6,000 bases of DNA from Candidatus Poseidoniaceae archaeon. GTDB taxonomy: Archaea; Thermoplasmatota; Poseidoniia; Poseidoniales; Poseidoniaceae. Under the pieces are notes generated by a model. That model was not told where the DNA came from, ran no database searches, and worked only from the letters and a program-made list of their open reading frames with translations. Shown piece after piece: positions 1,596 through 6,000 of the stretch. The number at the start of each line of letters is the position of its first letter. The stretch's first letter is position 1. The stretch covers positions 1 to 6,000 of the forward strand of contig JAKMFF010000327.1 in the NCBI GenBank assembly GCA_022425585.1, written 5' to 3'. The position numbers and the translations under genes were made by a program.

Positions 1596-1623
1596 GCGGC
1601 GCGCACAAGAAATTGTGAGAGCC

Positions 1624-4600
1624 ATGCGTAATCTACGATTTTTAGTTGGAATTATGTTCATTATTACTGCATTATCCCCGATAATGACTATCCATAATCC
1701 ACTTAATTTAGAAACATTTGACGAAGAAGAAAGCAAGAATCCATTTGGCGAACCAATCTTATTGGACGATTTAAGAAAGGACATTAGAAATGCGGTTGGC
1801 CAACCCTGCCCAGCAATACAAAATGATGGAGGGTCTCCAGGTGACGCAGGAAATGCAACAACCAATACCGCTAAAGATCTAGGTTCAAACCCCACAACCT
1901 CGTTCACTAGTTGTGCTGACACCACCGATATTGAAGATTGGTATGAATTTACCATGGACCAAGACTACAATATCGAGGTTACCATGTCTAACTATCAAAA
2001 CGATTACGATTTAGCGATTGCTTACGATGATAACGGGTCATACTTTGCCGCAGACACATCATATTACGGCGATCCAGTAGAAACGGTAACTAGTGTTGGC
2101 TCAATAATCGAATCAACACCTGGAACCTATTGGGTAGTTGTGTTTCCTTACAACCAAGGCGCAAGCTCCTCAATTGGCGATTATGATCTAGACATATGGA
2201 CAAACTACACCGAATCATGCGCTGATTGGTTTTCACCACAAAACGATGCAAATACTGGGCAAGACGCCCCTCAAAACTGGTCGGAGTCCCCGACCAACAT
2301 GGGTAACAATGTGACTGCTAGCTACACCGGGTGCCTCGACGGTTCTGATGGCGGCGACGTTTTCGCTTTTGACGTGCCGGTAAATCACACTATTACCGCT
2401 ACTTTAACAATGGATTCTGGAGTAGACTTCGACCTAATAATGCACCAAACAAACGGGACAATAATTGATTCCTCTGGTGGCAGCAATGATGCTGATGAAT
2501 TTATCACATCACTTGATAGCACATTTGAAAATCAACAGGGAACATATTACATCAACGTCACACACTTCTCTGGCAGTGGCAATTATTCATTAGACGTCTG
2601 GACAAATTTTAGCGTCCCAATTCCAAACCTAGCAATCGATAATATTAGTTTTGGACTGGCGGCAAACCCGGGAGATATAGTTCCGGTAGACATAACAGTA
2701 ATCAATGACGGAACTTTAGATTTAACAGATTCTTTCATGGCTGAAGTTATCCTAAGCGTTGATTCAGGACAAACTTGGGTAGATCACAATCTCGGTAATG
2801 CAAGTTGGACCTCAGGTTTGGCAATTAATGCAACCCAAGTTCTTACGGTTAACGGAGCGATACCGACAAATATCGTTGAGGGGGAATACAATGTATTTAT
2901 TGTCCTTGATTCAGACGAAATGGTTGCCGAAAAGAGTGAAACAGATAACGTCGAGTTAGCCGATGACACAATGGAAATTGGTAATTCTGTCAACGCCTGC
3001 GCAACTCCGCAAGATGATGCTGCATCAGGCTCCGATATTGGCGAAACGGTTGCGACATCCTTCGATTTGGGATCTGACCCTGAGCTAGAAGTAAGGGGCT
3101 GTATAGACTCATCTGATGAAGCCGATCTTTACAAGGTGACAATCACGCCTAACCAGCCGCTTGAAGTTACTTTAGTTACCGCACCAATTGACGGCGCAGA
3201 CTTCGACCTTAGCCTCGACTTACCGAATGGCACATCAATTGACACAAGCCTTTCGATAAATGACGATTTCGTCACTCTAGAAGGTACTGATTACGAAAAT
3301 ACCGCAGGAGACTATTACATCAATATCACCTATTGGGGCGGCTTTGGCTCTAGTAATCCTGGTGGAACTTACCGATTACTAATTGGTGAGCCAGACCAGA
3401 CAACATATGTTCCACCGTTTACTTGTGGCAATCAAAACGACCTTGGCTTAGGCCAAGATGCTAGTTCATCCGGAATCCCGCTTGGGACAAATAATCCAAT
3501 CAGTGGTACAGGTTGTTTGAGCAATTCAGATACTGAAGATGTTTACAGCTTCACTATTGACGATTACTACAACACAGAAGTCAGATTTAATGCTTCTATG
3601 TCTGCACCTTTCACAGCTACGCTAACCAATAGTGCTGGCAACTTAGTGGCTTCAGTTGACAACATGAGTTACGGATTGGTCTTTGAGTCTATGGATAACG
3701 AGACCTATGAAGGGCAAACAACAACCTACACACTAACAATCGATTCCAATGGCGGTCAAGGTGATTATGACGTTGAACTTGTAGTCGTTAACCCAGCACT
3801 ACCAGACCTGATTCCAGAATCATTAACCTGTCCTACTACCGAAGCATACACCGATGAAGAGATTACTACTCAATGGATAATTCACAACGCCAGAGGCCCT
3901 GCATTTGGCCAAAGTATGGTTGTTCAAATTGAGTTGGTTGATTCAGATAATGTGACACTTACTACAATGTATTCTTCTGAATTAGAATCAGAAAACCCAA
4001 GTATAAGCAATGCAATGTCGTACGAGCAATCCAGCGTACAAGATAGTTATGCATTCTTTACCATTCCAACCGATACGCCATCAGGAGATTACCGTTGTAA
4101 GTTAATTATTGATAGTAATAATGACGTCACTGAAGCCAATGAATCCAATAACGTTCACTTTTCTGAACCATTCTATGTTCAAAATGAAGATGAATTGTGG
4201 GCTAATGATGTAGATAGAGACGGGTTCAATTCAACCGATGCCGGAGACGGAATTATCGACGACTGTCCTAACAATCCAGGGACCTCAACTGTCGACAGAT
4301 ATGGCTGCCCAGATCTCGATAGTGATGGAGTTTCCAATGATAATGATATCCTGCCAAATGACATGTCTCAGTGGTACGACACCGATGGCGACGGATTCGG
4401 AGACAATCCACTAGGTACTAATGGCGACCAATGTCCAGCTGTTGCTGGAGTCTTCTCGGGAGATGATGGTGTTGGCTGTCCAATTCTAGATTTGGATTCG
4501 GACGGCGTTCTTAATGAGAACGATATCTGCCCTGAAACCCCACTAGGCACGATCGTCGGTTCGGATGGTTGTGAATTGCCCGATGAGCCAGATGAGCCGG

Positions 4601-5022
4601 AAGACAACACAACAGATCCAATCGACCCAGTTGACCCAGTTGACCCAGTTGACCCAACTGAACCCGGGGATGATACGGACTTGGGCGATGATACCACAGA
4701 TTCTACAGATGAAGCAGAATCTGAATCAGGTATATTCGGTATGTCGTATACGCTCATTGGAATAATTGGTGCAGTGATAGTCTTGCTCTTAGTTACGGCA
4801 TTCTTTGTTAGAGGAAGAGGCTCTAAGAATGATGAATGGTCGATGCAGGAGAAGGCGTATTCTGATGCTGGATTCGCCGCAGTAGCGGGTATGCCAGCGC
4901 CGGATACATCAATTACGCCAGAGCAACTCGCTTATGAGCAACAATTAATCGCAGCAGGCTATCCTGCAGACTATGCAAGAGCATATGCAGATCAGCATTT
5001 CCGACCTTGGCTAAAGCAGTGA
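1624..5022 (+). CDS. Large modular cell-surface protein (PPC, CARDB, thrombospondin type 3, C-terminal anchor)
   Basis: Predicted exported protein of 1132 residues; function not recognised. Numbering from ATG 1624: signal peptide (MRNLR, then hydrophobic 6-20); PPC-like beta-sandwiches at about 62-196, 199-331, 459-590 and 601-722; CARDB-like (Ig-type) domains at about 334-453 and 725-853; Asp-rich thrombospondin type 3 calcium repeats at about 862-983 (DVDRDG, DLDSDG, DTDGDG, DLDSDG); a Pro/Asp/Glu/Thr-rich stalk at 984-1039; one membrane helix at about 1043-1062; basic stop-transfer RGRG; and a 70-residue cytoplasmic tail. Topology is therefore outside N terminus, inside C terminus. Each PPC unit has one Cys at its start and another 30-38 residues later. 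Adhesion, substrate binding or protease-accessory roles are all possible; no catalytic domain is visible. GTG 1615, in frame nine bases upstream, is an equally possible start and would fit a leaderless transcript better; ATG is chosen for codon strength. Confidence 0.9.
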   Translation: MRNLRFLVGIMFIITALSPIMTIHNPLNLETFDEEESKNPFGEPILLDDLRKDIRNAVGQPCPAIQNDGGSPGDAGNATTNTAKDLGSNPTTSFTSCADTTDIEDWYEFTMDQDYNIEVTMSNYQNDYDLAIAYDDNGSYFAADTSYYGDPVETVTSVGSIIESTPGTYWVVVFPYNQGASSSIGDYDLDIWTNYTESCADWFSPQNDANTGQDAPQNWSESPTNMGNNVTASYTGCLDGSDGGDVFAFDVPVNHTITATLTMDSGVDFDLIMHQTNGTIIDSSGGSNDADEFITSLDSTFENQQGTYYINVTHFSGSGNYSLDVWTNFSVPIPNLAIDNISFGLAANPGDIVPVDITVINDGTLDLTDSFMAEVILSVDSGQTWVDHNLGNASWTSGLAINATQVLTVNGAIPTNIVEGEYNVFIVLDSDEMVAEKSETDNVELADDTMEIGNSVNACATPQDDAASGSDIGETVATSFDLGSDPELEVRGCIDSSDEADLYKVTITPNQPLEVTLVTAPIDGADFDLSLDLPNGTSIDTSLSINDDFVTLEGTDYENTAGDYYINITYWGGFGSSNPGGTYRLLIGEPDQTTYVPPFTCGNQNDLGLGQDASSSGIPLGTNNPISGTGCLSNSDTEDVYSFTIDDYYNTEVRFNASMSAPFTATLTNSAGNLVASVDNMSYGLVFESMDNETYEGQTTTYTLTIDSNGGQGDYDVELVVVNPALPDLIPESLTCPTTEAYTDEEITTQWIIHNARGPAFGQSMVVQIELVDSDNVTLTTMYSSELESENPSISNAMSYEQSSVQDSYAFFTIPTDTPSGDYRCKLIIDSNNDVTEANESNNVHFSEPFYVQNEDELWANDVDRDGFNSTDAGDGIIDDCPNNPGTSTVDRYGCPDLDSDGVSNDNDILPNDMSQWYDTDGDGFGDNPLGTNGDQCPAVAGVFSGDDGVGCPILDLDSDGVLNENDICPETPLGTIVGSDGCELPDEPDEPEDNTTDPIDPVDPVDPVDPTEPGDDTDLGDDTTDSTDEAESESGIFGMSYTLIGIIGAVIVLLLVTAFFVRGRGSKNDEWSMQEKAYSDAGFAAVAGMPAPDTSITPEQLAYEQQLIAAGYPADYARAYADQHFRPWLKQ
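4624..4656 (+). repeat. 9-bp in-frame tandem repeat encoding Asp-Pro-Val units
   Basis: GACCCAGTT is repeated three times without a mismatch, followed by a partial fourth copy (GACCCA). It encodes the Asp-Pro-Val part of the extended stalk between the thrombospondin type 3 repeats and the membrane helix. Identical codons in each copy suggest recent expansion by slippage, so copy number probably varies between strains. Confidence 0.9.
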
Positions 5023-5568: not shown

Positions 5569-5586
5569 TTGCTGGTAAGCCAGCAA
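5569..5586. other. Hairpin-forming inverted repeat between cyclophilin and the fumarase fusion
   Basis: TTGCTGG and CCAGCAA form a perfect 7-bp stem around the 4-base loop TAAG, beginning 21 bases after the cyclophilin stop. A T-rich stretch follows (TCGATATTATTT) but there is no clean T run, so a terminator is only a possibility. It could equally be a second protein-binding site upstream of the next promoter. Confidence 0.5.
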
Positions 5587-5590
5587 TCGA

Positions 5591-5604
5591 TATTATTTAA
5601 TAAT
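5591..5604 (+). promoter_or_regulatory. Likely archaeal promoter (TATA box) of the RHH-fumarase gene
   Basis: A pure A/T tract beginning TATTATTTAATAAT lies about 20-33 bases upstream of ATG 5624. TTTAATAA at 5596-5603 is centred about 25 bases before the ATG, the expected TATA spacing if transcription begins at or near the start codon. No Shine-Dalgarno precedes the ATG (bases are AAGCCCAGACT), which fits a leaderless mRNA. The position and composition are seen; use as a promoter is inferred. Confidence 0.55.
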
Positions 5605-5614
5605 TAATTATTAA
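5597..5614. promoter_or_regulatory. 18-bp perfect AT-only palindrome, candidate operator
   Basis: TTAATAATTAATTATTAA reads identically on both strands and ends 9 bases before ATG 5624. It overlaps the likely TATA box. Because the gene it precedes starts with an RHH domain, a family that binds short palindromic or tandem operators as dimers, self-regulation is a reasonable hypothesis. A/T-only sequence yields palindromes by chance more easily than mixed sequence, so symmetry alone is not proof. Confidence 0.5.
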
Positions 5615-5623
5615 GCCCAGACT

Positions 5624-6000
5624 ATGTCCAAACATCGCGTCGGAGACCGTAGAATAATTAGTATTAGTTTGCCAGAAGACTTAGCCTCAAGATTAGATCG
5701 CAGTGTCGGCAAGGGCAAATCCGGTCGAAGTGCCACAATTAGCAAGATGATTGAGACCGCCCTCTCGCCACAATCGCCAAACAAAGTAGAACCAAACTCT
5801 AAGCCCAAGGCAAAGCCATCTGGGGGGTATAGAGTAGAAAGTGACACGATGGGCGACTTGGAGGTTCCAAACGACCGCTATTTTGGTTGCCAAACCGCTC
5901 GTTCGCTGATAAATTTTGATATTGGAGATGATAAAATGCCTAGAGGCGTAATACGATCTTTTGGCATCCTGAAACAAGCCGCAGCCAAGACTAACGTTTC
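5624..6000 (+). CDS. fumC: Ribbon-helix-helix domain fused to class II fumarase, 3' end outside window
   Basis: Class II fumarase interconverts fumarate and malate in the TCA cycle; the 125 complete codons visible cover only its N terminus. Residues 9-47 look like a CopG/Arc-type RHH domain: strand RRIISISLP, helix [12 protein letters not shown], a Gly/Lys turn, then [14 protein letters not shown] as helix two, with basic residues ahead of it. Residues 48-67 are a Ser/Pro/Lys linker. From 68 on, [30 protein letters not shown] and LKQAAAKTN match the fumarase N terminus, closer to FumC than to aspartase. The frame has no stop or shift across the join. There is no ATG, GTG or TTG between Met42 (inside the RHH helix) and Met76 (inside the fumarase motif), so the enzyme has no sensible start of its own. 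The catalytic Ser loop lies beyond the window, so activity cannot be judged. Aspartase or another family member is less likely. Confidence 0.88.

Follow-up and report, generated by a model that had tools for sequence, protein, structure and literature searches.

Gene organization at the locus

The DNA analysed here is a stretch of 6,000 nucleotides, referred to as the window. Its last gene is an open frame that starts at the ATG at 5624, continues for 125 residues without a stop in the window translation, and runs past the window end. Its product comprises, in order, an RHH DNA-binding domain, a linker that varies between relatives and the first part of a class II fumarase, and a palindrome lies immediately upstream of the gene. 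The features are as follows.

5593 to 5603, forward strand: probable TATA-like element over the left palindrome arm, assigned from its position
5597 to 5614, no strand assigned: perfect 18-bp palindrome TTAATAATTAATTATTAA, a probable operator, found by repeat search and ending 9 nt ahead of the ATG
5624 to 5767, forward strand: RHH DNA-binding domain, residues 1-48, whose basic N-terminal arm is conserved in the alignment
5768 to 5827, forward strand: variable linker, residues 49-68, diverging in sequence and length among relatives
5828 to 5998, forward strand: class II fumarase start, residues 69-125, running off the window end

A cyclophilin gene precedes the fusion gene with a spacing of 76 bp, and in two related loci (L003 and L007) the next gene is convergent with the fused gene. 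The fused gene thus stands alone, and a site at its promoter would therefore control only fumarase. Elsewhere in the window, positions 2-1573 encode an ATP-type PEP carboxykinase (PF01293), another C4-acid enzyme, three genes ahead of fumarase. Positions 1615-5022 encode a protein of 1135 aa that looks like a surface protein: it has CARDB and PPC domains, a repeat of DPVDPV and a hydrophobic segment close to the C-terminus.

The sequence-only reading of this DNA had claimed an RHH domain in frame with a class II fumarase, with about 68 residues ahead of the enzyme and no alternative start between the domains. The same layout is present in many Poseidoniia genomes, and in the window gene ATG, GTG and TTG are all absent in frame from linker residues 49-68. 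The in-frame start candidates lie solely within the RHH domain, a TTG at residue 16 and an ATG at residue 42. In several relatives the codon at residue 42 is TTG (leucine), so the ATG there is not a conserved internal start, and production of a plain fumarase from an internal start was rejected. A chimera or a sequencing error joining two genes, which would have undone that reading, is very unlikely because the continuous frame recurs across many genomes.

Identity of the RHH domain and integrity of the enzyme

Scanned by themselves, window residues 12-43 match Pfam RHH_1 with an E value of 1.3e-3 and 19.0 bits, slightly missing the curated cut-off of 20.5. The match is stronger in relatives: when 23 related N-terminal domains were scanned one at a time, 21 reached RHH_1 at E <=0.01, the best at 5.6e-6. 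The earlier identification of the domain as an RHH holds, with the window copy just under the Pfam threshold. When full-length proteins were scanned, 10 of 26 rows (three of the 26 being unfused) gave an RHH_1 match at the E value of 0.01 or better. NikR matches in the profile search were weak, and some partial copies carry the NCBI name 'ribbon-helix-helix domain-containing protein'.

The head of the protein is much better conserved than the linker in the alignment of relatives. Mean pN/pS was 0.15 for the RHH domain, 0.60 for the linker and 0.10 for the enzyme (91 pairs from 14 sequences of the window's group), ratios that are rough because synonymous sites are near saturation. The RHH domain is under purifying selection. 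Structure models of the domain were of low confidence. The monomer model of the domain (pLDDT 62) places helices at residues 18-27 and 36-47, and the full-protein model places low-confidence strands at 2-6 and 9-13. A Foldseek search with the low-confidence RHH model returned no match, and among sequences of solved RHH proteins the nearest matches were not significant (E 0.41 and above).

The class II fumarase profile TIGR00979 aligns with window residues 69-124, starting at profile position 1 (E 3.4e-17), in line with the expectation that a lyase begins at about residue 68. The complete gene in L003 encodes 530 aa and scores 760.9 bits against a TIGR00979 cut-off of 664.75 over residues 69-526; its domains above threshold are Lyase_1 and FumaraseC_C, with no others. 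The catalytic motifs, GRTH and the SS loop GSSIMPGKVNP, do not vary across the 26 aligned rows, of which 23 are fused. The full-length enzyme with its catalytic Ser loop, which the sequence-only reading had asked to see confirmed, is present in relatives. L003 matches solved fumarases with E values down to 1.7e-236, and the full-protein model retrieves fumarases from the PDB. Judged by profile and motifs, the fused fumarase enzyme is intact.

Distribution and evolution of the fusion

Nineteen loci were collected from genome contigs. Ten (L001-L009 and L019) encode the RHH domain plus fumarase, and nine (L010-L018) encode a plain fumarase that begins just ahead of the ExDTMG motif. The ten fused loci are 74-98% identical across the 125 residues. 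Eight of them (L001-L004, L006, L007, L009 and L019) hold a complete fumarase gene of 530 aa; L005 is masked and L008 is cut by a contig end. The fusion protein was matched at E <=0.001 in 332 of 339 Poseidoniia genomes, strongly in 292 by hand count and at the level of the lyase family in the remainder. The first 50 residues were matched at E <=0.01 in 183 of the 339 genomes. Setting aside a weak match in the unfused G043, the RHH part is present in 182, and the search of related marine archaea that had been suggested thus recovers the same fusion widely. Absences of the RHH part are soft because many assemblies are incomplete. Among the matches listed for the first 50 residues, the open frames are at least 308 aa long except for G167:C16 (47 aa).

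A quick tree built from 86 cores requires 8 changes of the RHH label, and well-supported branches force at least 4 of them. This tree fits an ancient RHH fusion that was lost several times. Outside Poseidoniia, an RHH-like N-terminus was seen by eye in none of nine fumarase frames parsed from 20 loci fetched, and no relative was found in the viral contigs searched. Of 110 short RHH matches eight were read, and a true standalone copy may exist among the other 102. Five of them (P0060, P0072, P0094, P0115 and P0116) resemble fusion copies with frame shifts in or after the linker, P0081 extends into the fumarase motif, P0096 joins an RHH to a dehydrogenase-like piece, and P0091 is short. Nine full-length protein-database matches are annotated with lyase domains only, and the sole named one is a class II fumarate hydratase; the fusion is easily missed in such entries. 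Two assemblies carry two fumarase genes each, G182 (L106 and L107) and G170 (C9 and C13). Bin contamination is likely in G182 since the DNA upstream of L107 is nearly identical to that of L111 from G063.

A predicted operator ahead of the fused gene

With up to 2 mismatches allowed, a search of 26 genomes places the palindrome TTAATAATTAATTATTAA ahead of the fumarase gene in all 17 fused genomes and in none of the nine unfused ones. The other occurrences in these 26 genomes are a single place in G005 and another in G078, each with 2 mismatches. The backwards pattern matches 0 to 2 times on each strand of a genome, so chance matches with 2 mismatches do occur. The sequence ATTTATTAATAA is present once each in six of 13 genomes, five times ahead of fumarase and once elsewhere. 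A wider regulon is unsupported, the full site being almost confined to the fumarase gene in the genomes tested.

Other fused clades carry a two-armed variant, TTTATTAATAA[GC]T[AT]ATTAAT, found with up to 2 mismatches in 23 of 30 fused and none of nine unfused genomes (for two of the nine, G207 and G052, unfused status rests on the search with the first 50 residues). It lies directly ahead of the gene in 22 of the fused genomes, and in G266 it borders a masked stretch about 330 bases upstream. The site is missing from seven of the 30 (G276, G274, G286, G192, G189, G291 and G295), and its backwards control matched four of 39 genomes (G237, G291, G212 and G152). Within 150 nt of the gene, 25 of 79 fused rows have a perfect palindrome of at least 14 bp, which in 21 cases lies at the predicted operator element; none of 36 unfused rows has one. 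Palindrome scores reach p <=0.05 against shuffles in 21 of 59 fused rows and one of 23 unfused rows, which is modestly unusual and weak by itself. Directly upstream of the palindrome, at window 5569-5586, there is an inverted repeat, TTGCTGG-TAAG-CCAGCAA. Its arms covary in L001-L004, so a second site or an RNA hairpin is possible.

An exact half-site, TTATTAA or TTAATAA, lies within 60 nt of the start in 74 of 74 fused rows and in none of 36 unfused rows. Four of the 78 fused rows are left out of this count, their upstream DNA being short or masked, and L056, with two half-sites, is counted from a GTG start. Of 34 unfused rows searched to 300 nt upstream, none has a half-site. When the half-sites are searched for more loosely, as an inverted pair with one mismatch allowed, the pair is present in 52 of the 74 fused rows, missing from the other 22, and missing from all 36 unfused rows. 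Five of five independent pairs agree in site and domain on well-supported branches (p 0.0625), with eight pairs on all branches; this co-loss is given limited weight because the site adjoins the domain, and one deletion could remove both. By eye, two unfused loci (L106 and L113) retain the final codons of the upstream gene seen in fused L042-L049. One unfused clade (L102-L111) has a conserved leader of its own, CGTACGAACGGTGAAGAAGTACCGC or near variants, at about -40 to -15 from the fumarase start.

The position of the half-site raises the question of a core promoter. In 55 of 56 fused rows the first half-site begins between -31 and -25, the place expected of a TATA box, so the left arm possibly doubles as one and may owe part of its conservation to the core promoter. 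In some fused clades the left arm is the only arm kept. The palindrome might accordingly be the AT-rich core promoter of a leaderless gene, with the RHH domain doing some other job. We regard this as unlikely. A half-site is absent from all 54 other upstream regions in ten fused loci, whose neighbourhoods overlap so that the genes are not independent, and an all-AT 8-mer at -40 to -17 occurs in just 3 of 99 other upstream regions, for which start calls are crude. Second copies of the palindrome lie farther upstream in several genomes, and in the deep-branching group described below the paired site is upstream of a separate TATA-like box. A scan for sigma-70 promoters and terminators gave signals at the level of shuffles only, its models being unsuited to archaea.

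Many archaeal regulators use AT-rich palindromes, and the site could belong to one of them, with the fumarase RHH domain binding elsewhere or acting otherwise. This is improbable: the site is nearly unique and tracks the RHH domain, so any dedicated regulator would have to have been lost together with that domain. The palindrome is instead the probable target of the RHH domain of the fumarase itself, as its distribution suggests. Overall, the genome comparisons indicate that the fusion is real, is conserved across much of the class Poseidoniia, and has a nearly unique matching site at its own promoter.

Other N-terminal domains in Poseidoniia fumarases

The most divergent group of genomes (G012-G033), perhaps MGIII, has a fumarase with a different N-terminal extension in 18 of 22 genomes; in one more, the C-terminal part only is present. 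Homology of this domain to RHH is unsupported (hhalign probability 0.24%; an RHH family in none of ten members). It has no detectable RHH similarity and is therefore not called an RHH. Deep-branching loci L178-L195 combine this domain with a paired inverted repeat, GTATGCA..TGCATAC, upstream. Seventeen loci were parsed of 19 fetched, and they carry the paired element GTATGCA...TGCATA..TTATGCA...TGCATAC, or a near variant, upstream of the gene. Of the 17, 13 show the strict pattern, which lies around -65 to -31 and has TTTTAATA or TTTTTATA after it. Single-arm matches with zero mismatches are confined to the vicinity of fumarase in 17 of 17 deep-branching genomes searched; with one mismatch, they occur elsewhere in several of these genomes and in one of four outsiders. 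Since the paired site is upstream of the TATA-like box, activation is possible in this group.

A third kind of N-terminal domain is found in G057 (L159), inside an otherwise unfused clade. It matches YlcI/YnfO with an E value of 9.2e-7, slightly below cut-off. TTATTAA half-sites are present upstream of this fumarase, and it satisfies the exact half-site count within 60 nt (1 of 1). The loss and replacement of modules inside one class make the evolution of enzyme-repressor fusions traceable.

A proposed model for autogenous control of fumarase

We propose, with a probability of about 0.72, that this class II fumarase also represses its own gene, which forms a transcription unit by itself. Its DNA binding, the direction of its regulation and its control by metabolites are inferred. 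The RHH domains of the fumarase tetramer would pair as dimers and bind the palindrome. Since the palindrome spans the probable TATA and start region, the bound protein would block TBP/TFB or RNA polymerase, and fumarase would thereby cap its own level. By analogy with proline and PutA, the balance between DNA-bound and free protein may depend on the substrate, the product or the state of assembly.

Since class II fumarase forms homotetramers and RHH domains work in pairs, each tetramer would have two DNA-binding units. The bridging of two sites by one tetramer would fit the paired sites seen in several lineages. A second copy of the palindrome lies 46-47 bp upstream of the first in G065, G079, G088 and G114, and tandem 14-bp palindromes lie upstream of the fused gene in L163 and L171. 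These arrangements suggest something beyond the needs of a TATA box alone.

Eukaryotic and Bacillus fumarases have been linked with DNA damage responses, and the N-terminal domain might be a module for assembly or localisation that lacks sequence-specific DNA binding, with a role at damaged DNA for example. RHH domains dimerise, and that of PutA mediates dimerisation (PMC5293562). We consider such a function very improbable here, for it leaves the nearly unique palindrome unexplained and the enzyme is retained without the domain in unfused relatives.

Beyond autorepression by the RHH fusion, a broader interpretation may be offered tentatively, and we hold it to be somewhat doubtful. Poseidoniia fumarases may form a self-regulating set whose DNA-binding module has changed on more than one occasion. 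Their tetramers would bridge paired operators, with gating by their own substrates, so that TCA flux would set the dose of the enzyme without a separate regulator. The modules of this set, equally tentative, would be the widespread RHH, the unrelated-looking domain with its own paired operator, and the YlcI/YnfO-like domain of G057. The autorepressor model gives a precise predicted binding site, and it is testable with one recombinant protein and short synthetic DNA.

Comparison with known systems

PutA is the best known fusion of an RHH domain to an enzyme that represses its own gene, and no other is known to us. A description of an RHH-fumarase fusion was not found in a search of 5.39 million open-access papers, and a prior description may exist elsewhere.

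The fused protein resembles FumC in its full-length match over the curated cut-off and in its invariant catalytic motifs. What sets it apart from FumC is an N-terminal extension of about 68 residues that contains a DNA-binding domain, together with the palindrome ahead of the gene. The RHH_1 profile match and the weak NikR matches relate its N-terminal domain to repressors of the CopG/NikR type. In contrast to those repressors, the partner here is a TCA-cycle enzyme and not a metal-binding or toxin-binding part.

The closest parallel is PutA. Trifunctional PutA of Gram-negative bacteria carries an N-terminal RHH domain on a metabolic enzyme and represses its own genes; it also represses putP and relocates to the membrane (PMC5293562). 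The fumarase fusion likewise carries an N-terminal RHH domain on a metabolic enzyme, and the PutA-like layout proposed in the sequence-only reading stands. The fusion is not a member of the PutA family itself, since the proline dehydrogenase and P5C dehydrogenase domains are absent from L003, which has only Lyase_1 and FumaraseC_C above threshold. With a DNA-binding domain on the enzyme and a predicted operator at its own gene, it has, on sequence evidence, what would be expected of a PutA-type autogenous repressor. It differs from PutA in its enzyme and pathway, in being archaeal, and in having a site almost confined to its own gene. The logic of PutA would thus extend to uncultured marine archaea and to an enzyme central to their TCA cycle.
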